A stretch of DNA of 59,143 nucleotides from assembly GCF_041107455.1 (NCBI RefSeq), contig NZ_JBGBPY010000002.1, positions 1 to 59,143 of the forward strand. The letters run 5' to 3'. Each line of letters starts with the position of its first letter. Within the stretch, counting starts at the first letter, position 1. Below the pieces are notes generated by a model. The model was not told the origin of the DNA. It did not search any database and was given only the letters and a program-made list of their open reading frames with translations. Shown in pieces: positions 4,570 through 39,361 of this stretch. The stretch is from Rhodanobacter humi. Lineage in GTDB: Bacteria; Pseudomonadota; Gammaproteobacteria; Xanthomonadales; Rhodanobacteraceae. The position numbers and the translations under genes were made by a program.

Positions 4570-4878
4570 TCAAATTTTCAAATAATCATCACACGCGGTG
4601 ATGAGTTCTCGCAGTGTCGGCTCATCCGCATCAGGACGGGCCGCCAGCAGGGCGCGAAGTTCCCCAATCTGTTTATTGTCTGGAATCAGTTCGGACGGAC
4701 TTTCCCACATCCAGTCGATCACGATCGGCAAAAGTTGGGTGGCAGACAACGTGGCCACTTCATGCCGGGTGGGTACATACATGCCCGCCCGAAAAACGGG
4801 GCTATCCAGCCCATGACTTTCCCTGGCCGCCTTGAAAGCACTGGCGGGCATGCCGAAACGATCGTCGGGGTCAGTCAT
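4570..4878 (-). CDS. Small conserved-context protein coupled to tnpS
   Basis: A 102-aa protein of unknown family. The sequence is acidic at the N-terminus (MTDPDDRFG), has an Ala/Leu-rich C-terminal half and no membrane segment. Its ATG overlaps the tnpS stop by 4 bp (ATGA), and an AGGAGA ribosome site lies 5-10 bp upstream, so it is translationally coupled to the recombinase. It ends 57 bp from the convergent ArnT-like gene. It could be a recombination accessory factor or simply a passenger. No function can be assigned from sequence. Confidence 0.65.
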   Translation of the reverse strand: MTDPDDRFGMPASAFKAARESHGLDSPVFRAGMYVPTRHEVATLSATQLLPIVIDWMWESPSELIPDNKQIGELRALLAARPDADEPTLRELITACDDYLKI

Positions 4879-6038
4879 GGCAGGTCTCCTTCTCTTTGCT
4901 GCGAGGCGTCGGCTCGCGTTCTCGTTGTGCTTGCATGCCGTGAATCTTCTTCTGCGTGGAGGTAAATCGATGTCGTGCCGATCGAGCTGTGGCGAAGATT
5001 CTGCTGGATGTGGTGGATCGGTGTTCCGTCTTCGGCCTGATGCGTGGCGGCCGTATGCCGTAGCCAATGAGTCGACGCCCGCCGCACTCGGGAGGCTTTG
5101 GCGGCATCTTCCTTTTGGAGCGTATCCGCAACATGCCGGAAGGTGGCCTTGACGATCTGATAGATCGCCGTGGGAGTGAGCGCAGAAGCGCGGCCGGCGA
5201 TCCCCAGAATGGCCGGTATCTTGCCATTGTCGGCCGGCGCGGGCGGCAACCCATGGAAGCCGCGATAGCGCGCGAAATCCTCCATGAGATGGTCGCTGAG
5301 GGGGATCTGACCCTCGACGCCGCCTTTGCCCACGACATGGAGCCACCACCGACCACGAACGCGCTGGAAATCGCTCTCGCAGGCCGCGGCGGCCTCGGAA
5401 GCCCGTAAAGCCGTTTCGTACAGGAAACGCAGTACCCAACGAGCGCGTTCGTAGCGTTGGCAATCCCGGTTCGTCGACCGTGGCCAACCGTCGATGCTGT
5501 GAAGCACGTCGTCCCAAAGGGATCGGTCCAGATAGCGCTCGATAGCACGGGGCATCCCGCGACGCGCCCGTCGCCGCTGCAGCACAAACGGACTGCCGGC
5601 GAGATAGCCGGCGCGTACGAGATAGTTGAACAGCCCTGCGAGGATGCCCAAGGCCTGACGTCGGCTGCGCTCGGCCAATGGTCCCGTGAACAGGCGCCGA
5701 TGCTCACCACGACGGGCCAGACTGTCGTCGCACCAAGTGGCGGGCGGATGGCAGAGAAATGCTTCGTAGGCGATCACATCCTCGCGGGTGAGGCTCGACA
5801 CCGGCTTGCCACGTATTTGCGTGGCCCAGAGCAGCAGCCGTTCTGCCTCCTTGCGGTAGCTGCGAAAGGTATGGGGCGAGTCGTGATATTCCGCCAGCCA
5901 CAGGCCGATCGCCGCCACGTCGTCATTGGCCGCAATCTGTCGGGCCACGTTCGCCGGAGCACGGTTGGTTCCGGCGCATCCCGACAGGACAGGAGGCAGG
6001 GCCTGGGGTACGGCGAGGCTCAAAGGATGTTCAGTCAT
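4875..6038 (-). CDS. tnpS: Tyrosine recombinase, cointegrate resolvase (TnpS type)
   Basis: A 387-aa tyrosine recombinase (starts 30 bp upstream are also open). An N-terminal SAM-like core-binding domain is followed by the catalytic domain with visible residues: Arg in TALRASE, Lys in VGKGGVEG, His/Arg in HWLRHTAAT, then HSSIGTTSIYLH with the nucleophilic Tyr. In Tn4651-type elements TnpS, helped by TnpT, resolves replicative cointegrates at a site between the two divergent genes. The same divergent pair is present here, with a 161-bp AT-rich spacer. All catalytic residues are present, so it is probably active. Confidence 0.88.
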   Translation of the reverse strand: MTEHPLSLAVPQALPPVLSGCAGTNRAPANVARQIAANDDVAAIGLWLAEYHDSPHTFRSYRKEAERLLLWATQIRGKPVSSLTREDVIAYEAFLCHPPATWCDDSLARRGEHRRLFTGPLAERSRRQALGILAGLFNYLVRAGYLAGSPFVLQRRRARRGMPRAIERYLDRSLWDDVLHSIDGWPRSTNRDCQRYERARWVLRFLYETALRASEAAAACESDFQRVRGRWWLHVVGKGGVEGQIPLSDHLMEDFARYRGFHGLPPAPADNGKIPAILGIAGRASALTPTAIYQIVKATFRHVADTLQKEDAAKASRVRRASTHWLRHTAATHQAEDGTPIHHIQQNLRHSSIGTTSIYLHAEEDSRHASTTRTRADASQQREGDLP

Positions 6039-6068
6039 GCTTTCCGATGTCCAATGCCGCGGGACCAC

Positions 6069-7644: not shown

Positions 7645-7854
7645 AAGATCAACCTGGTGGCGGGGTCAACGAACCCGCCTGGAACGGCCACAGGCCGTCG
7701 CCGCGATGGCGCGGCAGGGAAGGGCGCAGCCCTGGGACTGGAACGCTGTAGGGAGCCGCCTCTAGCGGCTCTGGCGGCGGCGCTGACGGTGGTACACGGT
7801 CGGCGCCGCCGCGCCTGTGACCTTGCGGCGGTGGTACACGGCCGCGCTCTGGAT
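7645..7854. repeat. 210-bp exact direct repeat, copy 1, abutting the transposon
   Basis: Identical by eye to 9940-10149. The copy starts at the first base outside the right terminal repeat and stops where the first 40-bp palindrome begins. Internally it holds two partial repeats of GGTGGTACACGG. It is non-coding. Confidence 0.9.
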
Positions 7855-7857
7855 GCT

Positions 7858-7897
7858 GGTGACATTCTTGGCCAGCTCGATGCACCTGGTTGTCACC
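7858..7897. repeat. 40-bp palindrome-ended repeat P1
   Basis: GGTGACA and TGTCACC arms with a 26-bp centre (GGCCAGCTCGATGCACCTGG type, nearly the same as P11). It lies 3 bp after the 210-bp repeat and downstream of the minus-strand gene 7950-8615, which is bracketed by P1 and P2. Confidence 0.85.
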
Positions 7898-8976: not shown

Positions 8977-9012
8977 GTCTTCATCCTTGCGTTTTGAGTA
9001 GGTGCCGCGTTA

Positions 9013-9031
9013 CCAAAATATACCATCTTGG
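9013..9031. promoter_or_regulatory. 19-bp palindromic operator a (CCAARAT-N5-ATYTTGG)
   Basis: On the minus strand it reads CCAAGAT-GGTAT-ATTTTGG, matching the plasmid-wide consensus exactly. It lies upstream of the 8695-8976 gene. Confidence 0.75.
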
Positions 9032-9048
9032 CAACGCGGAAGGGTTAA

Positions 9049-9621
9049 TTAGGCGTAGCTGCTCCAAGACTTCGGCCGCCCGTCCCACGGCCACGCCGTG
9101 CTGCAGGAGTCGATGCGAACGGTGTTTGCACCCGTGGGGCGCTTGCCGACGATCAGGCCGGCCCGGTATTGACCGGGGAGGGCGCGGCACTCGCCCTGCA
9201 TGCCGATGCCGCTTTCCGTGCGATCCTGCTGCAGCTCGCGCAGGTCGACCACGCTGCCGCGCACCGAAACAACCTCGTAAAACTCCACGTTGGTCTGCTC
9301 GTATCCCCACGACGTGTAAAGCACGTCGCCGACCTTCAGGCTGTGCGGCTTCCGGGCCTCGGCCTTGCGAGCCTTCGTCGCTTCCAAAGCCTGTACCCGG
9401 TCTGCTTGCCACTTCTCGGCGTAGGCGTTGCGCGCTTCCTCGGTTTTGAAGCTGTAGAAAGCTGCCGCCTTGGACCGACGCCCGGCGAATGCCAGGAACA
9501 AAGGCCGCTCGGCCGTGCCGCCCGTGAAGAAAATCGAACCGTCCTCGAACTGTCCCGCGACCGCCAGCCCGTGGGCCTCTGCCTTCCGGCTGCGCAAGGT
9601 CTGAACTTCATCAAAGGTCAT
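9049..9621 (-). CDS. Hypothetical leading-region protein
   Basis: A 190-aa soluble protein of unrecognised family. The N-terminal half is rich in aromatic residues (GSIFFTGGTAERPLFLAF). A middle segment (KVGDVLYTSWGYEQTNVEFY, then a VSVRG turn) suggests a small beta-barrel. A good ribosome site (AGGAGA) precedes ATG 9621. Upstream lie a decayed copy of the leader peptide seen in the next two loci (9622-9710) and palindrome R1. The gene ends 18 bp before operator a. Confidence 0.65.
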   Translation of the reverse strand: MTFDEVQTLRSRKAEAHGLAVAGQFEDGSIFFTGGTAERPLFLAFAGRRSKAAAFYSFKTEEARNAYAEKWQADRVQALEATKARKAEARKPHSLKVGDVLYTSWGYEQTNVEFYEVVSVRGSVVDLRELQQDRTESGIGMQGECRALPGQYRAGLIVGKRPTGANTVRIDSCSTAWPWDGRPKSWSSYA

Positions 9622-9710
9622 TGCTGTTTTCTCCTAAGAACATCGTTTTGCTAGATGCTGAGCCGGCTTTTGCAGTGGCTTGATCGGTGGATCTGACTGG
9701 TGCCGCCGAT
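9622..9710 (-). pseudogene. Decayed leader-peptide segment upstream of the 190-aa gene
   Basis: The stretch around 9648-9672 closely resembles the DNA encoding the EPAQASS leader of the proteins at 11378-11917 and 12291-12887 (shared bases such as GCTAGATGC and GAGCCGGCT). Here it is not in frame with the following gene. It looks like a remnant of the R-element/leader module after a different gene was attached. Confidence 0.5.
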
Positions 9711-9919
9711 CTGTTTGAACATCGTCTCGCTGAGTGCTTCGCCGTGAATCGCGTAGGTCGGCCGGGTGATGAAGCAGACGGGCAAGGGCAGTGACAAAGC
9801 CGCAGCGCCGAAGGCGACCGGGTGCAGGCACTGGCGCAGCGAACCCTTGCCGGGCTGCGCACCCGGCCTACCGTTTAGCGATGGCGAAGCACTTAGCGGG
9901 ACGGCTCTTGTTCAAACAG
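9711..9919. repeat. Long imperfect palindrome R1 (209 bp)
   Basis: Perfect 11-bp terminal arms (CTGTTTGAACA / TGTTCAAACAG) enclose further paired blocks such as AGTGCTTCGCC near each end and GGCAAGGG further in. The centre is related to R2. It lies 89 bp upstream of the minus-strand gene at 9621. The arm sequence differs entirely from R2 and R3 yet stays complementary. Confidence 0.85.
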
Positions 9920-9939
9920 AGCCGCAAGGCGGCACCGGG

Positions 9940-10149
9940 AAGATCAACCTGGTGGCGGGGTCAACGAACCCGCCTGGAACGGCCACAGGCCGTCGCCGCG
10001 ATGGCGCGGCAGGGAAGGGCGCAGCCCTGGGACTGGAACGCTGTAGGGAGCCGCCTCTAGCGGCTCTGGCGGCGGCGCTGACGGTGGTACACGGTCGGCG
10101 CCGCCGCGCCTGTGACCTTGCGGCGGTGGTACACGGCCGCGCTCTGGAT
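9940..10149. repeat. 210-bp exact direct repeat, copy 2
   Basis: Second copy of the 210-bp sequence, lying between palindrome R1 and the HTH/NUMOD3 gene, 17 bp before that gene's ATG. In this setting it could contain the gene's promoter. The direct repeat could also recombine and delete the 2.3 kb between copies. Confidence 0.9.
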
Positions 10150-10165
10150 TTGCGATCATCTGGCG

Positions 10166-10786
10166 ATGGCCACAAACAAAAGATCCCGCGCCAAGCCGAA
10201 AGCTCCGCGCTCGAAGGGCGAGCTGCGGCGCTACCACACGCCGCCCGTGGAAGATGCGCCGCCGTTGTTGTTCGGCCCGTACAAACCGCCTGCCTGTCGC
10301 ATTGGCGACTGGATCAACGATGAGGTGTTGGGCTTGGTTGAGGTCAGCGGCTGGACGGATGGGCCCATGCCGTGGCCGAAGCGCAAGCGGCCAGGCCTGC
10401 CGACGATCATTTTTACCGATGACCTGGTGCGAGCGATCCGGAGCGAGAGCGCTCGCGCCGTGGCGGGCGCGTGGGGCTTCACGCCATCGACCGTCACGAA
10501 CTGGCGGCGTGCGCTCGATGTGGAGCGCTTCACCCCCGGCACCACGCAATTGCTCCAATCGAATTACGACGCCGAGCAAGGATCGGCGGCGCTGGCGAAG
10601 GGCCGGGCCACCATCGCCGCCAATCCCGAAATACGCCAAGGGATTGCCGATAAGAAACGGGGCGTGAAGCATTCGGCCGAAGCGCGGGAGAAGATCAGCG
10701 CGGGCCTGAAGGGCAGGCCGAAAGCGGCCGGATGGGGAGCCAAGGCCAACGCCTGGATGCTTGAGGGGAAGGCGAAGCGTCGATGA
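10166..10786 (+). CDS. HTH/NUMOD3-type DNA-binding protein, unknown role
   Basis: A 206-aa basic protein. The N-terminal third is Lys/Arg/Pro-rich. A central segment (AVAGAWGFTPSTVTNWRRAL, residues ~100-120) reads as a helix-turn-helix, and the C-terminal part (HSAEAREKISAGLKGRPK) matches the NUMOD3 motif found beside homing-nuclease domains. No nuclease domain is visible, so it may be a regulator or the DNA-recognition half of a lost nuclease. It is the only plus-strand gene in the accessory block and reads convergently toward 10912. It starts 17 bp after repeat copy 2. Confidence 0.65.
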   Translation: MATNKRSRAKPKAPRSKGELRRYHTPPVEDAPPLLFGPYKPPACRIGDWINDEVLGLVEVSGWTDGPMPWPKRKRPGLPTIIFTDDLVRAIRSESARAVAGAWGFTPSTVTNWRRALDVERFTPGTTQLLQSNYDAEQGSAALAKGRATIAANPEIRQGIADKKRGVKHSAEAREKISAGLKGRPKAAGWGAKANAWMLEGKAKRR

Positions 10787-10800
10787 CGGCTGCAGTACGT

Positions 10801-10840
10801 GGTGACAGCAGATCCGCCGGCGCCGGCGGGATCTGTCACC
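10801..10840. repeat. 40-bp palindrome-ended repeat P3
   Basis: GGTGACA and TGTCACC arms with an almost perfectly self-complementary centre (GATCCGCCGGCGCCGGCGGG). It lies between convergent genes. Another hairpin (AAGGCGGC...GCCGCCTT) follows within 10 bp, so the pair can act as a bidirectional terminator. Confidence 0.85.
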
Positions 10841-10911
10841 ACCATGAAGGCGGCGGCTCGATGCGGCCGCCTTCATGTTCGCCGGCATCACCTTCGGCTC
10901 TAGTTGCTCGC

Positions 10912-11118
10912 TCATAACCGCGTCTCCTGGGTGACATTCCAGCCGTTGGCGAGGAACACCTGACGATGCCCCCAGCGGTCGACCTCGATAAAGGAGCCGT
11001 CCGAAAACCGGAAGGATTTCGAGCTGCTGAACTCGGAGCTTCGATTGTTCGTGACGTTCCGCGCCGTGGCCTCGATCTGCCACATGGGTTTGTTCGCAAG
11101 CGTCTCTGCAATGCTCAT
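10912..11118 (-). CDS. Small hypothetical protein, third gene of a three-gene operon
   Basis: A 68-aa protein: MSIAETLANKPMWQIEATAR, then a polar segment (SSSKSFRFSDGSFIEVDRWG). No known family. Its ATG overlaps the stop of the upstream gene by 4 bp and GGGAAG lies just before it, so it is translationally coupled. It is probably soluble, and the pattern suggests a small beta-rich domain. Confidence 0.6.
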   Translation of the reverse strand: MSIAETLANKPMWQIEATARNVTNNRSSEFSSSKSFRFSDGSFIEVDRWGHRQVFLANGWNVTQETRL

Positions 11119-11378
11119 GCTTCCCGTCCTTTCTTCCGTTCGGTGGTGTATGTCCAGCCGTCCAGCCGGGCGCGGCAAGCGCCGGCAATGGACGCCTGCA
11201 GGTGAGCGATGAAGCCCTTGTCGCGGATCGTCGTGGTGCTGTGCCCGGCCGCGAGGATCACGGCCTGGGCGTCTGGCTTCGCGAGCTTGCCGACGATGCT
11301 GTAGGCGGTGGCAAGGTTGCCCGCCCGCGTGGCCGCGTTGAGGATTTCGGCGATGGCCTTGGCTTCGGCGTGTGTCAT
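11115..11378 (-). CDS. Small hypothetical protein, second gene of the operon
   Basis: An 87-aa, Ala-rich helical protein (MTHAEAKAIAEILNAATRAG) with a basic C-terminus (TTERKKGREA). Its ATG overlaps the upstream stop by one base (TGATG). No recognised domain. With its neighbours at 11378-11917 and 10912-11118 it forms a tight operon downstream of palindrome R2. Confidence 0.62.
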   Translation of the reverse strand: MTHAEAKAIAEILNAATRAGNLATAYSIVGKLAKPDAQAVILAAGHSTTTIRDKGFIAHLQASIAGACRARLDGWTYTTERKKGREA

Positions 11379-11917
11379 CAGAACAGGCTCGTTTGGATGG
11401 GGTCGGCGGGGAACAAGTCGGCCACGTAAGCGGCGAGGTCGGACGAATCGACCAAAGCCGCGAAGGGCACGAAAAGCGACTGGTACCCGGTTTCGGTGAA
11501 CGGCAGCGGCGACCTGTCGACGCTCATCACCTCGACATGCACGCAATACGCGGCGAGGGCAAACGGGCTGGCCTTCACCAGCAGATCAAACCCACGAATC
11601 TTCAGCCGTTGCGTAGACCACGCATGAAGGGTCAGCGTGTCGGAGCGCGGCACGATGGCCGCAAAGGCATCGGACATGCAGCGGAAACCGAGTGCGGCGT
11701 AGTTCGTCCACGCCAACTGTTGCAGCTCGATCAATGCCGCTGTGGCGTCCGTCGACGGCATCGCGATTGCTTCCGCCACCGCCTGCCTGAAGAGTGGCAC
11801 AGCCTTTGCCTGCAGGTCAGCCAGCAGCGCCCTTGCCTTGTCCTGATCCCATGCTTCGCTAGATGCTTGAGCCGGCTCTTGCTCGATGCTGTTGATGTAG
11901 CTGTTCCGGTATTCCAT
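11378..11917 (-). CDS. Hypothetical leading-region protein with EPAQASS leader
   Basis: A 179-aa protein. The first ~25 residues (MEYRNSYINSIEQEPAQASS) share an EPAQASS-x-AW motif with the RadC-like protein at 12291-12887. The rest is unrelated: a helical segment rich in Ala/Leu, then a beta-rich C-terminal half. No family is recognised. GAGGCA lies upstream of the ATG, and the whole 17-bp space behind it abuts palindrome R2. It is the first gene of a three-gene operon. Confidence 0.65.
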   Translation of the reverse strand: MEYRNSYINSIEQEPAQASSEAWDQDKARALLADLQAKAVPLFRQAVAEAIAMPSTDATAALIELQQLAWTNYAALGFRCMSDAFAAIVPRSDTLTLHAWSTQRLKIRGFDLLVKASPFALAAYCVHVEVMSVDRSPLPFTETGYQSLFVPFAALVDSSDLAAYVADLFPADPIQTSLF

Positions 11918-11933
11918 GTCGGTACTGCCTCTG

Positions 11934-12141
11934 GTGGTGACCATGCTTCGCTGAGTGCCTTTCGCCGTGATCGCGTAGGGCGGCTGGGTGATGAAGCGGG
12001 CAGGCAAGGGCGGAACCGGAAGCCGCAGCGCCGAAGGCGACCGGGTGAGGATTCCGGCGCAGCGAACCCTTGCCTGGACGCGCACCCGGCCTACCGTTAG
12101 CGATGGCGAAAGGTGGTCGGCGAAGCGCTCTTGGTCACCAC
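11934..12141. repeat. Long imperfect palindrome R2 (208 bp)
   Basis: Ten-base terminal arms (GTGGTGACCA / TGGTCACCAC) enclose paired inner blocks CCTTTCGCC and CAGGCAAGGG, with a centre containing GCCGCAGCGCCGAAGGCGAC. It ends 16 bp before the ATG of the gene at 11917, replacing any ordinary promoter spacer. The arms differ from R1 and R3. Confidence 0.87.
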
Positions 12142-12217
12142 TCGCCGCAGGCGGCCGGGCATGAATGGCGTAGCTGCAGCGACTGTCGCTGCAACCGTTT
12201 TGCCAGCTCCTCCCGGT

Positions 12218-12257
12218 GGTGACAGCCTGCAGCTGGCCAGGCGCGATCGCTGTCACC
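12218..12257. repeat. 40-bp palindrome-ended repeat P4
   Basis: GGTGACA and TGTCACC arms. Its reverse complement is nearly P12 (centre CGATCGCGCCTGGCCAGCTG). It lies downstream of radC, between its stop and R2. Confidence 0.85.
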
Positions 12258-12290
12258 AAGGGCGCGGCGAAACCGCCGCGCCCTTCGCTG

Positions 12291-12887
12291 TTAGATCAGC
12301 CCTCGCGCCGCCATGCTCACCGGCTCGCCATCGCCGACAACCAAATGGTCAAGAACCCGCACACCAACCAGCCGCAACGCCTCCTGAAGTTCCCGCGTGA
12401 TTGCCCGATCCGCCGCGCTCGGCTCCGACACGCCAGACGGGTGGTTATGGGCAAAAATGACCGCGCAGGCGTTGACGGCCAGCGCTTCCTTCACTACCTC
12501 GCGAGGGTGAACACTCGCGCCGTCGACCGTGCCCCGGAACATTTCGGTGAAGCACAAAACGCGGTGGCGGTTATCGAGGAAAAGACAGCCGAAAACCTCA
12601 TACGGAAGCCCGAACAGCCGCGCCTTGATGAAATCGCCGGAATCTCGGGGATTGCCAAGCTGACGGCCCCGCGAAGTCAAAACGCGTTCGTAGATCGCTG
12701 CCGCCGCTAGCAACGTCGCACGGTCTGTCTCGGTCAAGATGCTGGACGGCTCCGGGTCGACCTCAATCACGTAAGCGGGCGGTGGTTGGGATGCCACGCC
12801 CTTGTATGCCCCTGCCTCTCCCCATGCTCCGCTAGATGCCTGAGCCGGCTCTTGGTTGGTGTTGTTCTTGATGTACTGGTGATCCAT
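12291..12887 (-). CDS. radC: RadC-family (JAB/MPN) protein with EPAQASS leader
   Basis: A 198-aa protein. The RadC/JAB domain occupies most of it, with the zinc-site motif HNHPSGVSEPSAAD around residue 150 and an upstream conserved Glu region. The usual N-terminal helix-hairpin-helix of chromosomal RadC is missing. Residues 1-22 carry the same leader motif as the protein at 11378-11917. RadC-like proteins are frequent in plasmid leading regions; their biochemical role is unsettled. It lies 17 bp downstream of palindrome R3 and has an AGAGGCAC ribosome site. Confidence 0.85.
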   Translation of the reverse strand: MDHQYIKNNTNQEPAQASSGAWGEAGAYKGVASQPPPAYVIEVDPEPSSILTETDRATLLAAAAIYERVLTSRGRQLGNPRDSGDFIKARLFGLPYEVFGCLFLDNRHRVLCFTEMFRGTVDGASVHPREVVKEALAVNACAVIFAHNHPSGVSEPSAADRAITRELQEALRLVGVRVLDHLVVGDGEPVSMAARGLI

Positions 12888-12904
12888 GTCGCTTTGTGCC
12901 TCTT

Positions 12905-13080
12905 GTGGTTGACCATGCTTCGCTGAGTGCCTTTCGCCGTGGGTCGCGTAGGTCGGCCGGGTGATGAAGCAGGCGGGCAAGGGCGGGAACCGGCGCAGCG
13001 AACCCTTGCCCGCCTGCGCACCTGGCCCACCGTTTAGCGATGGCGGAAGGTGGTCAGCGAAGTTCGCTCTGGTCAGCCAC
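12905..13080. repeat. Long imperfect palindrome R3 (176 bp)
   Basis: Eleven-base arms (GTGGTTGACCA / TGGTCAGCCAC, one mismatch) with inner arms sharing GCAGGCGGGCAAGGG on both sides. It is R2 with the centre deleted. It abuts the radC ribosome site. Confidence 0.85.
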
Positions 13081-13209
13081 CCGCCTGTGGCGGATGGACA
13101 TGGACGCCATAAGGGCAGCGGTACGCTGCATCTGCTGTGTGTCGGCCGAAGGCCGCTGCAGCGATCAGCTGCCGGCGTGATGCGGAATGTCTACGCGGTG
13201 CGCGTGCCT

Positions 13210-13350
13210 GGGCTGTGGATCTGTGGACAGCCGGCACGCCGGTACCTGCCTAGCCGCTGCGCGGCTTCCCGTGGACAAGCCGGGGACAACGGCAAGCCGT
13301 TGCCCCCAACTTGACCACCGGCCGGCAGCTGTCCACCAGCTCCACAGCCC
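13210..13350. repeat. 141-bp nested palindrome
   Basis: Outer arms begin GGGCTGTGGATCTG and end GCTCCACAGCCC. Inside lie further hairpins, including GGGGACAACGGC/GCCGTTGCCCC at about 13283-13305. On single-stranded DNA it would fold into a branched structure. Possible roles are a single-strand initiation site or another Frpo-like element. Confidence 0.6.
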
Positions 13351-13478
13351 CATACCGCTGATGTGTTGAGATAGCTTCAAGAGCAAACGTCAACCGCGGG
13401 GAGGCCGGGAAGTGGCGGCTCGGTTCATTTGGCTCGGTCAAACTAGGCCATTCCGGCAGTCGCCAATGCCATGCCATT

Positions 13479-13518
13479 GGTGACAGAATCGGGCGGAGCC
13501 AGGGATAACGCAGTCACC
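13479..13518. repeat. 40-bp palindrome-ended repeat P5
   Basis: GGTGACA and AGTCACC arms and a divergent centre (GGGCGGAGCC). It is paired with P6, 18 bp away, with no gene between. Confidence 0.75.
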
Positions 13519-13536
13519 ATCGCCTTAACGGGTATT

Positions 13537-13576
13537 GGTGACTGCCGGCACAGCTCGATCGCGCCGGTTTGTCGCC
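13537..13576. repeat. 40-bp palindrome-ended repeat P6
   Basis: GGTGACT and TGTCGCC arms; centre CAGCTCGATCGCGCCGG, a mosaic of the two main centre types. Confidence 0.75.
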
Positions 13577-13813
13577 ATCCACAAATACACGGGTCACGAA
13601 GGGATCAAGTCCATCCCGGAGTAGGCCGGTGTAGTTCGTGGGTGGCTGTTCTGCGTTTGGAGCCGGGACGGCGATACGAAAGCGCTGGAAGCCCGCTGCG
13701 ACCGAAGGAAGCCGGGGCGAGACTCGGCACGAGGCTCGATGCCGAAGGCACGACATAGCGGCCCCGTAGGGGTGAGCTAGACCTATAACGACGAGACGAC
13801 CTCAAGTGAAGCC

Positions 13814-14311
13814 ATGAAGCCAACGCCTCTACCAAGACATATGAATCTGGCAGCGAAATCGGTTACCTTAGAGACCGCCCGAAAGGAACGGAATGAAGCG
13901 CGAATTATGAAGCTGTGGAAAGAGGAAGACAGCATTATCGAAACGGAACTTCAAGGGGAATCCCCGATCCGTAAGCTCGACATTTGGCAAACGGCCGCTG
14001 GGTTCTACATCACGCTCAAGTTCTCCGGTGACCCCGATGAGCGTTTTCTGGCGGTGAGACGCAAACGGAACGGGCCGAGAATCTTCAAGGATGTGAATCG
14101 ACTGGTGGATTTCATGGGAACGGCCATGCCTCGCGTCGACGACGTAGGACTGCATCTGCTCCCCATCGACGAGCGACCCAAGGTGGTTCACCTGGTCAAG
14201 AAGGCACCCAAGAACTCGGGGAAAGCGGCGAAAGTGAGTCGGAAACCGGCCAAGAAAGCCCCCGCGAAGACTGTGACGAAAGCCGCGAAAACGAAAGCCG
14301 TGAGGAAGTGA
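13814..14311 (+). CDS. Hypothetical protein with histone-like basic tail
   Basis: A protein of up to 165 aa. Residues ~30-120 form a soluble domain of unknown family (SPIRKLDIWQTAAGFYITLK, then a VDFMGTAMP segment). The last ~40 residues are a Lys/Ala/Pro repeat (KKAPAKTVTKAAKTKAVRK) like histone H1 or bacterial nucleoid-protein tails, so DNA binding is plausible. The start is uncertain: 13814, 13841 and 13907 are all in frame. It precedes the operator-controlled virB1 transcript by about 40 bp. Confidence 0.55.
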   Translation: MKPTPLPRHMNLAAKSVTLETARKERNEARIMKLWKEEDSIIETELQGESPIRKLDIWQTAAGFYITLKFSGDPDERFLAVRRKRNGPRIFKDVNRLVDFMGTAMPRVDDVGLHLLPIDERPKVVHLVKKAPKNSGKAAKVSRKPAKKAPAKTVTKAAKTKAVRK

Positions 14312-15182: not shown

Positions 15183-17528
15183 ATGAAGTTGATGGTGGTG
15201 GAAAGCCCTAACAAGGTGAAGAAGATCGCCAGCATCCTCGGTGATGGCTGGCAGGTTGAAGCGAGCGCTGGCCACGTCCGCGACTTGCCTAAGCGTGAGC
15301 TGGGCATCGAGGGCGAAGGCTACGAGCTGCAGTACGAGTTCATTCCGCCTGCACCAATTCCCGGATCACCAGGGCGGTTCTTTCCGGGCGGTGAGGCCCG
15401 CGTCGGCAGGATCGCGCAGAAAGCGCGGCAGGCCGACACGGTGTATCTGGCGACCGACCCGGATCGCGAAGGGGAAGCTATCGCGTGGCACCTGAAAGAC
15501 GCTCTCGACCTGCAGGAGTCGGAGTATCAACGGGTGACGTTCAATGAAATCACGGCTGAAGGCGTCCGTAAGGCCGTGGCGAGCCCGCGCCGGATCGACA
15601 TGCAACTTGTCCACGCGCAGGAAGCACGTCGGGCACTGGATCGGATTGTTGGCTACATGGTGTCGCCTCTGCTGTCCGATCAGCTAGGGATGCCTGTATC
15701 TGCTGGGCGGGTGCAGAGCCCCGCCGTTCGGTTGGTGGTGGATCGCGAACGCGAGATTCAGGCCTTCTGCGAGACGAACCACTTCGGTGCGCGAGTGAGC
15801 TTCGACGGCGGCGCATGGACGGCGGACTGGAACACTAAGCCGTTTCTGGAAGCCGATCAGAAGTACCTGCTCGATGAGGCATTGGCCGCCCGGGCGGCAG
15901 CTTGTCGCGATTTCAGGGTGGTGGCGAGCGAGACGACAGCGCAGGCAGAAGCGCCACCGTCGCCGTTCTCAACGGCATTGCTGCTGCAGGCGGCGAGCGT
16001 AACCTTGAAGTTCGACCCGGAAGCGACGGCGAAGCTCGCGCAAAAGCTGTTCGAGCAGGGTGTCATCACGTACATCCGCACGGATAGCGTGAACTTCAGC
16101 GAGGAAGCTATTGCGGAGCTGCGCGCCTACGGCCAAGCCAAAGGCTGGGCGCTGCCGGCGTCGCCGCGCCGGTTCAAGGCCAAGGGCGACGCGCAAGAGG
16201 CGCATGAGGCCATTCGCCCGACTCATATCGAAGCGGTTGAAGCGGGCGAGACGGCAGACGAACAAGCGCTTTACCGCTTGATCTGGCTACGCTCAATGGC
16301 GTCCCAACTGGCGGACGCCCGCTATTCGGTGAACACGGTCGACCTGCAGGCGCAGAGCGGTAGCGAAACCTTTGACTTCCGGGCGAAGGGCCGGGTCATG
16401 GTGGATCAGGGATGGCGTGTATTGACGGCCATCGACGCTGCTGAAGATCCGGACGCCGGCAACGACGACGACGACGATGTTGCAGCAGGCGGCGGCAAGG
16501 TTCCGAAGCTGGACGCCGGCAGCGCGAAGCAAGCTGACGGTGGCCAACTGCTGAAGAAACGGACAAAGCCGCCAACGCGTTACACGAAAGCGAGCTTGAT
16601 TAAAAAGCTCGAAGCGTGCGGCATCGGCCGCCCGGCGACGTACCCGGCGATCATGGGCAATGTCATGGCGAAGGGGTACCTGGCGGAAGCGAAACGCTTC
16701 CTGTCGCCGACGAAGATCGGCGGCGAACTGGTCGATACCCTGGTCAAAGGACAGTTCGGTTTCATCGAGCTGCCCTTTACGAAAGGCCTGGAAGAGGATC
16801 TTGACCAGATCGCCGAAGGCAGGCGCACTTATACCGCGGTCGTGGGCGAAGCCTACGGCCAGCTTCAGCGCGAAATGGCGGGCGTTGCGGCGAGCGGTGC
16901 GCTCGCTCCGCGCCACCCTTGTCCTAAGTGCGGCAAACCACTTCGCCGCGCATCCAAGGACGGCCGCAACTACTGGTATTGCACGGCGTACAAGGATGGC
17001 TGCAATACCTTCATGGACGATGCAGACGGGGAGCCGGTGGCCCGCAAGGAATACGCGTGCCCGGAGTGCAGCGCGGCGCTACGCCGCTATCAACGCAAGG
17101 ACGCGGCAGGGAAGCCAATGAAGGCGTTCGGCTGGTTCTGCACGAATGACGAGTGCAAGACGTTCATGGACGACGACAACGGCAAGCCTGTCGAAAAGAC
17201 CGTGCATCTCTGCGACAAGTGCCAAGGTGAGCTGCGGCGCTACCAGAAGAAAGACAAGGTGACCGGGAACCCGGTGAATGCGTTCGGCTGGTTCTGCACC
17301 ACGGAAGGGTGCAAAACGTACTGCGACGATGCGGGCGGAAAGCCCGTCAAGAGTCAATCGTGCCCGGCGTGCAAGTCGGAGCTTCGCCGCTACCAAAAGA
17401 AGGACAAGGCCACCGGGAAGCCTCTGAAGGCGTTCGGCTGGTTCTGTACGAATACAGGGTGCAAGACCTTCATGGACGACAAAGGGGGGCGGCCTGTAAA
17501 GGCGGCTAAAAAGGGGAAACGGGGCTAG
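15183..17528 (+). CDS. Type IA DNA topoisomerase with four zinc-ribbon repeats
   Basis: A 781-aa enzyme. The N-terminal Toprim domain (MKLMVVESPNKVKKI, and later DPDREGEAIAWHL with the metal-binding acids) and the active site GVITYIRTDSV (Tyr about residue 297) are intact. Residues ~580-775 hold four tandem Cys4 zinc ribbons with a repeated FGWFCT motif. It relaxes or decatenates DNA and is typical of PromA/IncP-like plasmids, where a topoisomerase sits with transfer genes. ATG 15183 is preceded by GAGGGG. The acidic run NDDDDDV near residue 435 is a linker. Confidence 0.9.
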   Translation: MKLMVVESPNKVKKIASILGDGWQVEASAGHVRDLPKRELGIEGEGYELQYEFIPPAPIPGSPGRFFPGGEARVGRIAQKARQADTVYLATDPDREGEAIAWHLKDALDLQESEYQRVTFNEITAEGVRKAVASPRRIDMQLVHAQEARRALDRIVGYMVSPLLSDQLGMPVSAGRVQSPAVRLVVDREREIQAFCETNHFGARVSFDGGAWTADWNTKPFLEADQKYLLDEALAARAAACRDFRVVASETTAQAEAPPSPFSTALLLQAASVTLKFDPEATAKLAQKLFEQGVITYIRTDSVNFSEEAIAELRAYGQAKGWALPASPRRFKAKGDAQEAHEAIRPTHIEAVEAGETADEQALYRLIWLRSMASQLADARYSVNTVDLQAQSGSETFDFRAKGRVMVDQGWRVLTAIDAAEDPDAGNDDDDDVAAGGGKVPKLDAGSAKQADGGQLLKKRTKPPTRYTKASLIKKLEACGIGRPATYPAIMGNVMAKGYLAEAKRFLSPTKIGGELVDTLVKGQFGFIELPFTKGLEEDLDQIAEGRRTYTAVVGEAYGQLQREMAGVAASGALAPRHPCPKCGKPLRRASKDGRNYWYCTAYKDGCNTFMDDADGEPVARKEYACPECSAALRRYQRKDAAGKPMKAFGWFCTNDECKTFMDDDNGKPVEKTVHLCDKCQGELRRYQKKDKVTGNPVNAFGWFCTTEGCKTYCDDAGGKPVKSQSCPACKSELRRYQKKDKATGKPLKAFGWFCTNTGCKTFMDDKGGRPVKAAKKGKRG

Positions 17529-20829: not shown

Positions 20830-21552
20830 ATGAAAAGGGTAGCTCTATCGTCGTTCGTCGCGCTGGCAGTCGGCTTTTCGGCCGGTGCATTTGCTCAAAT
20901 CCCGGTCACCGACGTGGCCAACATCACGCAAGACGCAATGAACCAAGCAGCCAACATCGCGCAGTACATTGCGCAAGTTGAGCAACTGAAGATGCAGGTT
21001 CAGCAGCAGATTCAGCAGTACAAGGCGCTGACCGGCAGCCGGAACCTAGGCGACATTTTCAACGATCCGAAGTACCGCCAGTACCTCCCGGCAGATTGGC
21101 AACAGGTCTACGACAAGGTGAAGACCGGGGGCTATGCCGGCCTCACGGGAAGCGCGCAGTCGATCTACGAACAGAACCACATCTACGACGCCTGCGCGTC
21201 GATCCAGATCAGCGACCAGCGGAGCGTTTGCGAGCAGCAGGCGACGAAGCCGGCCATCGACCAGGGCATGGCAATGGACGCCTACGACACGGCCACCAGC
21301 CGCCTTGACCAAATCGAACAGCTGAGCAAGCAGATCAACTCGACGGACGATCCGAAAGCCATTGCGGAGCTGCAAGGGCGCATCGCGACCGAACAGGCCG
21401 CTATCAACAACGAGCAAACCAAGTTGCAGCTGTACCAGATGGTGGCCGATGCGCAGGACAAGATTCAGGAGCAGCGCGAGAACGAAATCAATGCGCGTAC
21501 CTGGGCGGCGCGTGGCGGCATCAAGGCAACTGCCCCGACGTTTGGCAATTGA
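20830..21552 (+). CDS. virB5: VirB5 minor pilin
   Basis: A 240-aa exported protein. The signal peptide ends at AGAFAQIP (about residue 23). A long helical, Gln-rich region (QVEQLKMQVQQQIQQYKAL) follows, as in VirB5/TraC pilus-tip proteins. It is preceded by AAGGAG. It lies in the expected virB4-virB5 order. Confidence 0.88.
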   Translation: MKRVALSSFVALAVGFSAGAFAQIPVTDVANITQDAMNQAANIAQYIAQVEQLKMQVQQQIQQYKALTGSRNLGDIFNDPKYRQYLPADWQQVYDKVKTGGYAGLTGSAQSIYEQNHIYDACASIQISDQRSVCEQQATKPAIDQGMAMDAYDTATSRLDQIEQLSKQINSTDDPKAIAELQGRIATEQAAINNEQTKLQLYQMVADAQDKIQEQRENEINARTWAARGGIKATAPTFGN

Positions 21553-27589: not shown

Positions 27590-27660
27590 CATCAAGGCTT
27601 CGCTACGCCGTAATCCTCACCCGGTCGCCTTCGGCGCTGCGGCTTCCGGTTTCGCCCTTG
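27590..27660. repeat. R4: isolated core of the long palindrome family, inverted
   Basis: Reverse complement of the R2 centre (contains GTCGCCTTCGGCGCTGCGGC and flanking TCCTCACCC/GGTTTCGCCC) without the outer arms. It lies in the gene-free stretch 27506-27811, which holds only this and repeats P7 and P8. Confidence 0.75.
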
Positions 27661-27677
27661 ACCCTGCTTCCCTCATT

Positions 27678-28239: not shown

Positions 28240-30492
28240 ATGAAGGTTCCTGTTTGGATCAAAGTGTTTCTGTGGCTACTGGTGTTCGCGTTGGCGTCCG
28301 TGGCAGCCGTCTACCTGGCGGGCGGGTTGTTCTTGCTGCTGAGCAAGACGAACCCGATGAAGGCGACCTTCGGAACCTTCTATCAATACTGGTTCTACTA
28401 CCACACCGATCCGGCGTATCAGAAACATTTGAACGTGGCGGCGATCATCGCGGCGGTGCTGGCCTACGGCACTCCCCTGGTGCTTTACGCCTTGGCCGTG
28501 CAGAAGCATCGCTCGCTGCACGGCGACGCCCGCTTTGCCCGCCCTGACGAGATTCAGCAGTCGGGATTGCTCGGTACGAAAGGCGTGATCGTCGGCAAAT
28601 GGCGTGGCCGGTTCCTCATGTTCGGTGGTCAGCAATTCGTTCTGCTTGCTGCGCCGACCCGAAGCGGCAAAGGCGTCGGCGTCATCATTCCGAACCTGCT
28701 CAATTACCCTGATTCCGTCGTGGTGCTGGACATTAAGCAGGAGAACTACAACCTGACTGCCGGCTTCCGAGCCAAGCATGGCCAGAAGGTGTACTTGTTC
28801 AACCCGTTTGCCGAAGACTTCCGCACGGCGCGCTACAACCCGTTGGGTTACGTGCGTGATGGTGAGTTCCGCGTGGGCGACCTGATTGCTATCGGCGAGG
28901 TCTTCTTTCCATCGGGTGGCCGCGATTCGTTCTTTGACGATCAGGCACGCAATTTGTTTGTCGGCCTCGGGCTCTATCTGTGCGAGACGCCGGACTTGCC
29001 CCGGACGGTTGGCGAAATGTTGCGGCAATCGTCGGGCAAGGGCCAGCCTGTCAAGGATTACCTGCAGGGAATCATCAAGGCACGGAATCACGAGGTCGAC
29101 GAAGAAGGCGAGGTGATCGGCGAGAAGGTTTGGGACGGGAAGGGGCCGAAACCGCTGTCACCAGAGTGTGTCGACGCAATCAATCGCTTCACCAGCACCT
29201 CGGACAACACGCTTTCCAGCATCTTGGCGTCGTTCAACGCGCCGCTCGGCATTTGGGCAAATCCGATTGTCGATGCCGCCACATCGACCAACGATTTCGA
29301 CTTGCGGGAAGTACGCAAACAGCGCATGTCGATCTACGTCGGTATCACGCCGGATCACCTGGCCGAAGCGGGCCGCCTGGTGAACCTGCTTTTCTCGCAG
29401 CTCATCAACCTCAATACCAAGGAACTCCCACAAGACAATCCGGCACTGAAGTATCAATGCCTGCTGCTTATGGACGAATTTACGTCTATCGGCCGGGTAG
29501 GGATCATCGCCAAGGCGGTGTCCTACATGGCCGGTTACAACATGCGCTTGCTGACGATCATCCAGACGCCTTCACAGGTGGAAGACGATGCGCCGGCCGG
29601 TTATGGCCGGCAAGGTGCAAGGACGCTCATCACGAACCACGCTTGCCAAGTGCTCTACGCGCCTCGCGACCAGAAAGACGCGAACGAGTATTCGGAAATG
29701 CTTGGCTACGAAACGGTCAAAGCGAAAAGCACGTCCCGCCAAGCCGGCCGATCTGGCGAAGGTCAGTCGCTTTCCGATCAGCGCCGCGCCCTCTTGCTCC
29801 CGCAGGAGATCAAGGAAATTGGCCAGTGGAAGGAAATCATCATCATCGAGAACACGAAGCCGATTCTCTGCGAGAAAATCAAATACTTTGAAGATCCGGT
29901 GTTCAAGCCTCGTCTCTTGCCGGCCCCTGAAGTGGCGATGCTGGACATGGAGACGTATCGCGCCCGCCTGCAGGTTTGCATCCGGCCGCTGACGGTGAAG
30001 GACGTTGCGAAAGGGATCGACCTGGGCAAGCTCGCTATCGACACGTCGAAGCTCCAGGTGCCGGATACGGCAAAGCTGGCCCCGGAAGAGGTGGCGGCGT
30101 TCGTCGACGACTTCTTCAGCCAGATCGACGCCGGCAGCGATGCCCTGGGCGACGTGGATGAGGACGGCTCAAGCGAGTCGCCCTCCGATGACGAGCTGGC
30201 CGATCTGGAAGCCGCAAGCGGCGAACCCTTCGACCCGGCATCGCTCGCGGACGAAGAGGACAGCATCGAGCAGGAAGGGCCGAACCAGATCGAGGCGGTA
30301 GCCGAAGTCGATGAAGAGCCTGCGCCGCCAGGCATTGAAGATTTCGAGTATCCAACGGATGGGATGGAAGAGCCCGACTTGACCTTCGAATATGTACCGG
30401 ACGATGCACCGCCGTCGCCCGACGATGATGCGCCGCTACTGGATTTAAGTGTGCTTGACAGGCCGCTTCATGCCGAGAAGAATTCGGTTTGA
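28240..30492 (+). CDS. virD4: VirD4/TraG coupling protein
   Basis: A 750-aa coupling ATPase. Two N-terminal membrane helices (residues ~7-32 and ~65-88) precede Walker A APTRSGKGVGVI (near residue 140) and Walker B LLLMDEFTSIG. It links the relaxosome and protein substrates to the channel. The last ~130 residues are an unusually long acidic extension rich in Asp/Glu (for example DEDGSSESPSDDELADLEA), a likely docking surface for basic substrate tails. GAAGG precedes the ATG. Confidence 0.95.
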   Translation: MKVPVWIKVFLWLLVFALASVAAVYLAGGLFLLLSKTNPMKATFGTFYQYWFYYHTDPAYQKHLNVAAIIAAVLAYGTPLVLYALAVQKHRSLHGDARFARPDEIQQSGLLGTKGVIVGKWRGRFLMFGGQQFVLLAAPTRSGKGVGVIIPNLLNYPDSVVVLDIKQENYNLTAGFRAKHGQKVYLFNPFAEDFRTARYNPLGYVRDGEFRVGDLIAIGEVFFPSGGRDSFFDDQARNLFVGLGLYLCETPDLPRTVGEMLRQSSGKGQPVKDYLQGIIKARNHEVDEEGEVIGEKVWDGKGPKPLSPECVDAINRFTSTSDNTLSSILASFNAPLGIWANPIVDAATSTNDFDLREVRKQRMSIYVGITPDHLAEAGRLVNLLFSQLINLNTKELPQDNPALKYQCLLLMDEFTSIGRVGIIAKAVSYMAGYNMRLLTIIQTPSQVEDDAPAGYGRQGARTLITNHACQVLYAPRDQKDANEYSEMLGYETVKAKSTSRQAGRSGEGQSLSDQRRALLLPQEIKEIGQWKEIIIIENTKPILCEKIKYFEDPVFKPRLLPAPEVAMLDMETYRARLQVCIRPLTVKDVAKGIDLGKLAIDTSKLQVPDTAKLAPEEVAAFVDDFFSQIDAGSDALGDVDEDGSSESPSDDELADLEAASGEPFDPASLADEEDSIEQEGPNQIEAVAEVDEEPAPPGIEDFEYPTDGMEEPDLTFEYVPDDAPPSPDDDAPLLDLSVLDRPLHAEKNSV

Positions 30493-37660: not shown

Positions 37661-38728
37661 CTACCGCTTTCGGCCTTGATCTTGATCTTCGCCGCTTCGC
37701 TCTCGTCCCTCGGTACCTCGCTCCTGTCCGCCCTTGCCCGCGATCCGTGCCCTCACTGCCTCCACGGCCAATTGATGGGCTGTTTTCAGCGGCGGCATTG
37801 CCTGGACAAACTGCACAACCTCCACGGCCAGCGCCCGGTCTTCAGCATCGCCCGCCGCCAGTGCTTTCGCCACTTGGCCGTAAGCCTGGACAGTTTCCTT
37901 TCGCGCCGCCTCGATGCGTTGTTGTGCTGGATTTAGGACTGGCTTCTCGCCGCGCACTTCGGCGACGACAGCGGCCTTCTGCGCCGCTTTCACGGCCGGC
38001 TCCACGCCGCGCCGCTGCATCTGAATGAGTTCTTGCTTCTCGGCCTTTCTGACCTGTCCTCGCGCCCTGCGTGGCGTGGCATTCGCTGCGACGCCCTGCT
38101 CTCGCAACGTCTCGGCGAAATGCTCGCGCCACTGCTGTAGATCGGCCTTTCGCGGGTTCAAGCGAACCCCGTTCTTGTCGACGGCCTTGACCGCAAGATG
38201 CACATGCGGGTGTTTCTCATCATCGTGAGCGGCGAACACGTACTGATGGTTGCCGAAGCGCTCTGCCGCAAAGGCACGAGCGGCATCCTTCACCGCCTGC
38301 CTGGACGTGCCTGGCGGCATGGACAGAACAATGTTGAAGGCCTCACGTCGCGTACCTTCTTCGGCCGGAATCCGCGCTTTCCCGTGCGCCCACGAATCAC
38401 GCACATCGCGCACATCCTCCTTCCCTAAATGCAGATTCCCGTTCTCGTCCTCGATTTCGACAGTACCGTTCCGGGAGATGTAATCCATGTGCGCTTTGAT
38501 GTGCCGCATGCTCTTGCCACCACCTGAAATCTTGACCATGACTTCAGGAGCCTTCTGCATCGTCAGCTTCAGCCGTGTGCGCGGTTCACTACGCTTGACC
38601 ATCGGCGGCGCTTTTCCGAAGTCCAGCTTGCCTCCCCGGATATTGCGCTGCTTCTTGCCACGCTTGACCTTGCCGTAGCCAACCCGGTCGCCCCAGTCCT
38701 TGATGATGCCGTCAACTACCTTGCTCAT
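37661..38728 (-). CDS. MOBP-type relaxase (VirD2/MobA-like)
   Basis: A 355-aa relaxase. The presumed catalytic Tyr is in KAHMDYISRNG (residue ~85), and the metal-binding triad is in HDDEKHPHVHLAVKAV. The C-terminal ~130 residues are basic and Ala/Glu/Arg-rich with no helicase or primase domain. It nicks oriT and leads the strand through the channel. ATG 38728 overlaps mobC by 4 bp. It is smaller than relaxases fused to LPD7/KfrB domains; those domains are separate genes here. Confidence 0.9.
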   Translation of the reverse strand: MSKVVDGIIKDWGDRVGYGKVKRGKKQRNIRGGKLDFGKAPPMVKRSEPRTRLKLTMQKAPEVMVKISGGGKSMRHIKAHMDYISRNGTVEIEDENGNLHLGKEDVRDVRDSWAHGKARIPAEEGTRREAFNIVLSMPPGTSRQAVKDAARAFAAERFGNHQYVFAAHDDEKHPHVHLAVKAVDKNGVRLNPRKADLQQWREHFAETLREQGVAANATPRRARGQVRKAEKQELIQMQRRGVEPAVKAAQKAAVVAEVRGEKPVLNPAQQRIEAARKETVQAYGQVAKALAAGDAEDRALAVEVVQFVQAMPPLKTAHQLAVEAVRARIAGKGGQERGTEGRERSGEDQDQGRKR

Positions 38729-39261
38729 TTCAGGCTCCACCGCTCGATGCTCGCACCCATGACCTTGCTGACCTTCTCGGCGTGGGCACGGATTTCGTTG
38801 CGAAGGCGTTCGATGTAGTCAACCGTGATCGTGTCCGGGTGACCTTCGTTCAGACGCTTCGCGATCTGATTCAGGTTTCGGCCGATGGCAAGCAGTTGGT
38901 AGTTCGATTCGCCCAGCGATTCAATCTCGCGCATACCGGCCTGCGGTTGCTTGGTGAGCGTGCCCCTGACCACGTTCACCAACCACGACTGCCTTGAGCA
39001 GCCCTCGCCCCGTGCCCTGGCATCGACCGCCGCCAGCTCCGATTTCGTGAGCCGAATCTCGACGCGCTTTTTCTCCCCGGTATCTGGCCGCTCGTCCACC
39101 TGCTTCGCGGGCTCGATAGCCCCCTGTTCCACGCGCTCCATTTCGCGTTGGATTGAAGCTCTCAACGCAGCTCCCGGCCCGATCTGCCGCTTTTGGCAAT
39201 ACAGCTCCCAAGCCTCTTTCAGCTTCTCGCCTAGATAGACCTTTAAGTGAGCTTTTGACAT
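38725..39261 (-). CDS. mobC: MobC-like relaxosome accessory protein
   Basis: A 178-aa protein. The N-terminal half has a charged linker with a ribbon-helix-helix-like segment (KKRVEIRLTKSELAAVDARA). The C-terminal half has the MobC signature (LLAIGRNLNQIAKRLNEG). It helps melt oriT for the relaxase. No ribosome site precedes ATG 39261 (the upstream bases are a C-run); an in-frame ATG at 39297 is an alternative start. oriT lies directly upstream. Confidence 0.82.
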   Translation of the reverse strand: MSKAHLKVYLGEKLKEAWELYCQKRQIGPGAALRASIQREMERVEQGAIEPAKQVDERPDTGEKKRVEIRLTKSELAAVDARARGEGCSRQSWLVNVVRGTLTKQPQAGMREIESLGESNYQLLAIGRNLNQIAKRLNEGHPDTITVDYIERLRNEIRAHAEKVSKVMGASIERWSLK

Positions 39262-39299
39262 AGGGGGGGCAACAATCCGGACACCGTAGGGGGCCATTC

Positions 39300-39361
39300 T
39301 ACCGGCGTTAGCCTATCCTGCAATAGCCCACACCCCCCCTAACTTTTTTGAGATTCTCAAA
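39300..39361 (+). other. Origin of transfer (oriT) with RP4-type nic motif
   Basis: TATCCTG|C at 39314-39321 matches the IncP/MOBP nic consensus YATCCTG|Y. It is flanked by an inverted repeat (GGCGTTAGCC and GGCTATTGC on opposite strands). A 15-bp perfect palindrome TTTGAGATTCTCAAA follows at 39347-39361. Cleavage after 39320 makes the plus strand the transferred strand, with the par/ssb/rep side entering first. Confidence 0.75.

Follow-up and report, generated by a model that had tools for sequence, protein, structure and literature searches.

Three palindromes of roughly 200 bp, termed R1, R2 and R3, precede minus-strand genes in a 59,143-bp stretch of Rhodanobacter humi DNA (hereafter the window), which is the complete second contig of a 4.15-Mb genome and was taken as a circular plasmid. 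Judged from sequence comparison and fold modelling, they are probably single-stranded-DNA (ssDNA) promoters of genes in the leading half of this plasmid, i.e., Frpo-like in their action while standing outside the Frpo sequence family. This explanation was chosen since it covers the fold, the strand, the gene class and the promoter-like boxes together. The hairpins and the genes behind them are:

9711..9919, plus strand: R1 hairpin, folding on the transferred strand and reading toward the minus-strand gene at its left; fold z -8.9; homologues found
11934..12141, plus strand: R2 hairpin; fold z -6.6; as a query covered to at least 80% in 17 plasmid records
12905..13080, plus strand: R3 hairpin, without most of the apical module found in R1 and R2; fold z -6.9; included in alignment A1; relatives found
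9049..9621, minus strand: gene after R1, 190 aa; no match in Pfam, NCBIfam or PADLOC
11378..11917, minus strand: gene after R2, 179 aa; no match in Pfam, NCBIfam or PADLOC
12291..12887, minus strand: gene after R3, RadC-like JAB-domain protein (PF04002, E 2e-41; TIGR00608)

None of the genes beside R1–R3 had an anti-defence match in PADLOC or NCBIfam.

Folding of the palindromes and the transferred strand

A first-pass annotation of this DNA had described R1–R3 as palindromes with complementary arms of their own around a common interior, and its coordinates and pairing were right except for one wobble. The inner sequence is common to all three (repeat families D1, D2, D4 and D6), the outer arms pair fully in R1 and R2 and contain a single T-G wobble in R3 (GTGGTTGACCA / TGGTCAGCCAC), and inner blocks are complementary in R2 (CAGGCAAGGG/CCCTTGCCTG) as well as in R3 (AGGCGGGCAAGGG/CCCTTGCCCGCCT). 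Folded as ssDNA with short flanks, R1, R2 and R3 reached -75.9, -73.7 and -62.4 kcal/mol, respectively, and none of 200 dinucleotide shuffles of each, from which the z values above derive, was equally stable. In a GC-corrected window scan (220 nt, steps of 55), R2 ranked first, R1 second and R3 seventh among the 40 lowest windows listed; G+C contents are 64% for R1 and 67% for both R2 and R3. When R3 was compared with the 4.15-Mb genome (E<=0.001), R1, R2 and R3 were the only three places matched. The gap between hairpin and ATG amounts to 16 nt at R2 (first base of the ATG at 11917) and 17 nt at R3 (12887), exactly the distances noted at first pass, and to 89 nt at R1 (9621).

A search of related plasmids for further co-varying copies, as had been proposed, yielded 18 PromA-type hairpins (alignment A1), for which the fold of one row served as structure. 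Here, 85.2% of 1,199 cells were paired, versus 80.5% with shuffled partners and 31–49% when slid. Pairs changed on both sides numbered 20, against a mean of 13.5 that rose this high in 1 of 500 shuffles, and the covariation score of 0.148 (0.096 shuffled) was reached by none of 500. The number of further pair types in these 18 hairpins was unexceptional, with 79/500 shuffles as high, and RNAalifold retained just 42 pairs, with covariation contributing a small term. Mutation by template switching between quasi-palindromic arms is well established and can likewise keep arms matched; the co-variation thus supports folding without proving selection. Consequently, the earlier idea that compensatory arm changes reflect a fold that is kept agrees with these statistics, whereas selection does not follow from them as a necessity.

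The backbone of the window is that of a PromA/pSB102-like conjugative plasmid: KorB, ParA, SSB and RepA are encoded on the minus strand at 39.9–44.9 kb and the tra block, including coupling protein and transglycosylase, on the plus strand, a layout also present in pSB102, pTer331 and other plasmids. Foreign DNA lies within the leading half, namely a Tn3-family transposase (45389–48457) and a tyrosine recombinase (4875–6068). The transfer functions comprise:

37661..38740, minus strand: MobP1-like relaxase (PF03432, E 1e-18; NF041450 MobP1, E 1e-39, under the cut-off of that model)
38725..39297, minus strand: MobC/NikA-like relaxosome protein (PF21983, PF05713)
39314..39321, plus strand: candidate nic site TATCCTG|C, by coordinates 16 nt before mobC begins

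The nic motif GCCTATCCTGCA precedes mobC, or the gene replacing mobC, in all ten plasmids compared (the window and nine relatives), and, written as GCCTATCCTG|CA, it is confined to the strand opposite mobC in the 430-nt stretch searched in each. We take the motif of the window to be of the RP4/VirD2 type. Relaxases of these types have an established transfer polarity from nic; the transferred strand should therefore begin at 39321 and run upward, which makes it the plus strand and hence the template of the minus-strand genes. The general 5'-to-3' polarity of the transferred strand is described in the introduction of PMC7314908. Entry of the plus strand as template, as presumed in the first-pass annotation, is thus supported by the nic motif, and the orientation holds for 20/20 scorable hairpins (see below). 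The designation of the genes as leading-region genes holds for the leading half, but not for first entry, as entry of R1 would begin after 29.5 kb and the end of R3 would follow at 32.9 kb, out of 59.1 kb. On the 40-kb plasmid pTer331, the distances of the two hairpins to nic are approximately 8 and 16.5 kb.

Promoter-like boxes and relatives in other plasmids

Pairs of promoter-like boxes were found on the right arms, where they could function as part of a non-template strand once the plus strand is folded:

9847..9874, plus strand: R1 right arm, -35-like TTGCCG, 16-nt spacer, -10-like TACCGT (putative)
12070..12097, plus strand: R2 right arm, TTGCCT-N16-TACCGT (putative)
13006..13033, plus strand: R3 right arm, TTGCCC-N16-CACCGT, the first -10 base not being T (putative)

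A strict TTG-N15-17-TAnnnT pair is present on the right arm of 12/18 PromA-type hairpins and of 15/15 hairpins from an enterobacterial (Klebsiella/F-type) branch described below, while dinucleotide shuffles of the right halves would give 0.21 and 0.34, respectively. Read as a gene-directed duplex, i.e., on the complement of the left arm, 0/18 and 0/15 hairpins carry such a pair; for the left arm itself the counts are 0 and 0, and for the right-arm complement 0 and 1 (18 and 15 hairpins). The idea of a duplex sigma-70 promoter in the left arm, directed at the gene, was consequently rejected (box pair in 0/33 hairpins), and a left-arm sigma-54-type site, considered by eye, was dropped, its GG-GC spacing being 11 and not the 10 of the usual consensus. 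Under a looser rule (TTG or TGG; first -10 base T, C or A; spacer 14–19), all 18 PromA-type hairpins and 14/15 of the others qualify, the fifteenth lying outside the -35 pattern used and being counted by the strict rule. The -10 boxes of the Klebsiella/F branch are partly better (TATAGT, TACAGT, TAAAGT, TAAGAT), whereas the G+C-rich branch mostly has TACCGT, and the second -10 base is unpaired in 11/18 PromA-type and 13/14 Klebsiella/F-type predicted folds. Apical modules that occur on their own have a -10 at the right distance in 0/19 cases, compared to 21/21 hairpins examined with the same script; this solo set includes L006 24970, mislabelled by the script, and L017 10715, probably a chance match, and hairpins with a diverged apex are outside the reach of the script. 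The proposal to fold the plus strand and seek -35/-10 boxes thus led to stable folds and to promoter-like boxes in the folded geometry only, which are weak and were picked after inspection, with the -10 of R3 off-pattern.

Plasmid records were matched in 133 cases by R3 and in 2,395 by R2, the latter mostly by way of a 37-nt piece of the apical module, as judged from 60 rows spread over the ranking. No hairpin match appeared in 50,697 phage records. At the family level 4/233 genomes were matched, counting the own genome and one match in the apical part only, and at the class level 2/369, again with the own genome counted. In PromA, Xanthomonas and Pseudomonas plasmids, relatives stand before genes of the leading half; the PromA-type hairpins precede DUF3560 or ArdC genes and also a second operon adjoining the tra block. 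A P. aeruginosa plasmid (L013) with the anti-CRISPR genes acrE1 and acrF3 has three hairpins, before a DUF3560, a ParB-like and an unknown gene:

7665–7862, 14103–14300 and 1484–1637 of L013: hairpins, two of them identical in sequence, with a leader box (see below) at all three

In the 10 plasmids with mobC/relaxase, the left-arm motif located 20 hairpins within the stretches covered, all of which share the transferred-strand orientation, a count which omits L013 and L016 (no annotated relaxase in the stretch) and the pattern-scan loci L023–L034, among which L025 and L033 resemble chance matches by their folds. Moreover, the ATG lies 31–44 nt from the left-arm motif in 29/31 elements, the exceptions being R1 (106 nt) and L026 (no open frame). 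Such uniformity differs from the random orientation and position relative to genes expected of miniature inverted-repeat transposable elements (MITEs). As in Frpo and single-strand initiation (ssi) sites, a long stem-loop formed by the transferred strand lies upstream of genes templated by this strand in the leading region, which for the window means the leading half only.

The apical core also leads to diverged hairpins in IncF-type Klebsiella and Enterobacter plasmids, one Serratia plasmid, F and ColIb-P9. In 13 of the 15 folded hairpins of this branch an annotated gene, encoding ArdA, an anti-restriction protein, a DNA methylase or an unknown product, starts on the expected side and in the expected orientation. 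Of the other two, L008 has its gene start interrupted by other DNA, and the second F copy stands beside no annotated gene. A Klebsiella copy matched 4,466 plasmid records and the F copy at least 5,000. The hairpins on the two reference plasmids are:

56470–56739 and 52650–52799 of the F record; L022 11481–11726 and 7664–7786: plasmid F hairpins, separate from Frpo1/Frpo2
17363–17512, 21184–21451 and 28823–29090 of ColIb-P9 (L046): hairpins before ardA, anti-restriction and DUF1281 genes

The F hairpin region has a 97%-identical match in ColIb-P9 that stops 14 nt before ardA; in the same plasmid, a 99% match precedes the anti-restriction gene and a match to the second F copy precedes the DUF1281 gene, while the Frpo1/2-like sequences sit elsewhere. 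Frpo1 (upstream of ygeA) and Frpo2 (upstream of ssb) were located in F via their mutual similarity and the description in PMC9849209. According to PMC9849209 and PMC8744291, expression of ardA in recipients is rapid and driven by a Frpo-like promoter, and primary ColIb-P9 papers might already name the ardA-proximal hairpin. The F and ColIb-P9 hairpins have the apical core, the orientation and a right arm of the form CTTG...CCGG.TAnnnT in common with R1–R3, but differ in their outer arms (GCCGTGCC/GGCACGGC) and a spacer of 15.

Leader box and solo apical module

Downstream of each hairpin, a second conserved element (leader box) is found:

9638..9673, minus strand: R1 leader box, core GCATCTAGC, non-coding here, upstream of the ATG at 9621
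11848..11882, minus strand: R2 leader box, within codons of the gene 11378–11917
12821..12855, minus strand: R3 leader box, within codons of the radC-like gene

Downstream genes of different families share CCGGCTCAAGCATCTAGCAAAGCA (PAQASSKA) near codons 10–20. In the loci searched, 32/34 occurrences of the core lie within 260 nt of a hairpin and on the expected side. Conservation of the core is partly by construction, since rows were chosen by it; outside of it, CCGGCT is kept at 85–100% and AAAGCA at 88–100% per column, wobble included, compared to 37–88% in the flanks (27 distinct sequences). At R1 the box lies outside the reading frame of the gene, and the Nitrosomonas copy L016 has it in a shifted frame, which together with the wobble conservation indicates a constraint at least partly on the nucleic acid. 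A peptide tag selected at the protein level was set aside, as wobble positions are kept and the box survives off-frame in R1 and L016.

The box furthermore resembles the base of the left arm: behind the shared AGCRAAGC, or what corresponds to it, the next three letters all agree in 25/30 elements and one or two letters do in the remaining five, L026 as the 31st element being without the box and arm pair. Among 20 distinct arm-box pairs, own partners agree in 17, versus 52/362 cross pairings. Since the box nearly repeats the left-arm base and changes along with it, both could serve as pairing partners of the right arm. One tentative possibility is a portable early-expression cassette of hairpin promoter, 5' leader, ribosome-binding site and fixed first codons, copied before unrelated establishment genes, which would thereby gain the common N-terminal PAQASSKA, with box and arm acting as a fold switch or as a gene-capture recombination site. 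In the switch variant, the incoming single strand might alternate between the promoter fold and a fold burying the start codon. The leader box would connect the promoter fold with the coding start in an unusual way that can be tested directly.

The 75-nt apical module alone was observed at intergenic sites in both orientations, with outer arms varying between copies:

27593–27670 of the window; L006 4437, 24897, 35219, 35614 and 41447; L010 10396, 10798 and 16633: solo module sites
L011 16584, 20154, 31656, 32049, 37954 and 49447; L005 6670 and 11078: further solo module sites

One solo copy occupies the gap directly before mobC/oriT in four PromA plasmids (L005, L006, L010 and L011). The module is also present upstream of a mobV relaxase gene (L009 5001–5082, L021 5001–5077) and on a 3.1-kb Providencia plasmid (L019 2264–2345), and from these locations a role in priming or transfer is possible.

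Proposed mechanism and competing explanations

According to the ssDNA promoter explanation, the plus strand would enter the recipient and each palindrome would fold, as supported by prediction and co-variation, with the right arm then facing the left one in the role of an artificial non-template strand. This would place the TTG of the -35-like box in the apical stem and the TAnnnT-like -10, 16 nt nearer to the base, at an internal loop; both sequences are present, and a promoter function is predicted for them. After binding, host RNA polymerase could melt the weak loop and transcribe outward along the left arm and on into the minus-strand gene 16–89 nt off. Second-strand synthesis would abolish the fold and expression would presumably stop, as the gene-directed strand of the duplex has no box pair and the plus-strand pair points away from the gene. 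The products could aid establishment, like possibly the RadC-like protein here and ArdC/DUF3560, ArdA, anti-restriction proteins and a methylase in relatives.

Several observations weigh against this explanation. R1–R3 would enter mid-transfer, behind the kor/ssb/rep block and transposon DNA, and thus belong to the leading half and not to the first DNA. Their -10 boxes are weak (TACCGT, 3/6 consensus; CACCGT in R3), with the second base paired in the minimum-energy folds of R1 and R3. The boxes were proposed after inspection and the sequences are related, several being near-identical, so that the counts describe conservation and not independent events. Solo apical elements keep CCCTTG without a -10, hence this motif may serve another purpose, and the left-arm GAGTG is invariant in 18/18 hairpins despite at least seven right-arm versions opposite, for which pairing alone is no explanation. 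In the positive control, the same search found no strict TTG...TAnnnT pair in Frpo1/Frpo2, leaving the box model unvalidated on known promoters and lowering our confidence. Finally, R1, R2 and R3 gave no hit to the Frpo1/Frpo2 regions of F at E<=1e-3, and they are without an A+T-rich apex such as that of Frpo.

Alternatively, the palindromes could act in RNA, as a long 5' leader hairpin that ends shortly ahead of the ribosome-binding site. Transcripts from an ordinary duplex promoter further upstream would then have their translation or stability controlled by this hairpin and the leader box in the first codons. Left arm and leader box are indeed conserved as sequence, the box at wobble positions too, both are on the mRNA side and co-vary, and the hairpins of R2 and R3 end 16–17 nt before the ATG. 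We nevertheless consider this option unlikely, given that placement is tied to conjugative plasmids and the transferred strand (20/20) and that the box pair of the right arm would require a separate explanation. Moreover, no Rfam family reached its gathering score in the window or at the hairpins of the relatives scanned: R1–R3, searched also at E<=10 from 9000 to 13600, gave only microRNA-type matches far under gathering scores, and the matches at twelve loci of relatives were limited to a group II intron and plasmid RNAs already known, none at a hairpin. The radC RNA motif RF01754, which lies upstream of radC and anti-restriction genes, was rejected, as it stayed under the cut-off in the genome, where the other contig accounts for all seven of the weak hits listed, and had no match in the window from 9000 to 13600 at E<=10.

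A second function in ssDNA, namely that the hairpins are ssi sites priming second-strand synthesis by RNA polymerase, primase or primosome, with gene expression being secondary, appears quite unlikely to us. It would agree with the description of Frpo in the literature as both promoter and primer-synthesis site. It would also agree with the solo apical modules, which are numerous in intergenic DNA and were seen close to oriT in four PromA plasmids and ahead of mobV in two records, but priming needs neither a fixed distance and direction to the start codon (ATG at 31–44 nt in 29/31) nor -10-like boxes, which the solo modules do not have. Least probable, and in our view improbable, are repeats that move or recombine, either MITE-like or as duplicated modules kept alike by gene conversion, with arms that match through template switching and not through selection. 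That process is established, solo apical copies are dispersed, and in L007, L015 and L017 two copies are identical as far as the leader box and then diverge; however, orientation is fixed, the start-codon distance is nearly so, and the same boxes recur in two branches whose arms no longer align.

For Frpo, promoter function of the single strand was demonstrated in vitro, and in vivo by deletion, according to PMC9849209. Like Frpo1/Frpo2 of F (ssiD) and the ssi sites of ColIb-P9, R1–R3 are leading-region hairpins of the transferred strand just before establishment genes, but they are about 200 nt long versus 328 nt (PMC8744291), G+C-rich and have other arms and boxes. The classification as Frpo-type promoters made at first pass is thus partly supported, by strand, orientation and promoter-like, though weak, boxes of the folded form, and fails for a sequence match to Frpo1/Frpo2; R2 does hit other hairpins of F and ColIb-P9. 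A likeness to the repeats DR1/DR2 of RA3 was dismissed as one of name only, these being described as r1/r2/r3 repeat units in the source.

PMC11541004 reports 13,089 Frpo-homologous promoters and further leading-region candidates, 13 putative sequences from it were reused by PMC12826799, and the Klebsiella/F branch may overlap the putative Frpo sequences of PMC11541004. For the kfr/kor leading region of RP4, PMC7314908 describes zygotic induction, and its authors had not identified such promoters. In the titles and abstract openings listed, a coverage that leaves out most subscription papers, PromA hairpins were nowhere described as ssDNA promoters. New here are this hairpin class in broad-host-range plasmids and the coding leader box which co-varies with a hairpin arm. 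If the ssDNA promoter explanation is true, early reading of incoming single strands would extend beyond Frpo-like sequences to a second, G+C-rich class, common to IncF/IncI1 and broad-host-range PromA-type plasmids (Xanthomonas, Pseudomonas, Agrobacterium and environmental bacteria). It would further provide a searchable signature for early establishment genes, including the unknown proteins beside R1 and R2, and a test case for initiation of RNA polymerase on folded ssDNA outside E. coli.

Apart from the palindromes themselves, a 210-bp direct repeat, 100% identical, is present at 7645–7854 and 9940–10149 of the window, the second copy immediately right of R1. More inverted repeats with TGGTGACAG/CTGTCACCA-like half-sites were seen by eye at 10801–10845, 12215–12259 and 13453–13548, which are perhaps operators of a plasmid regulator.

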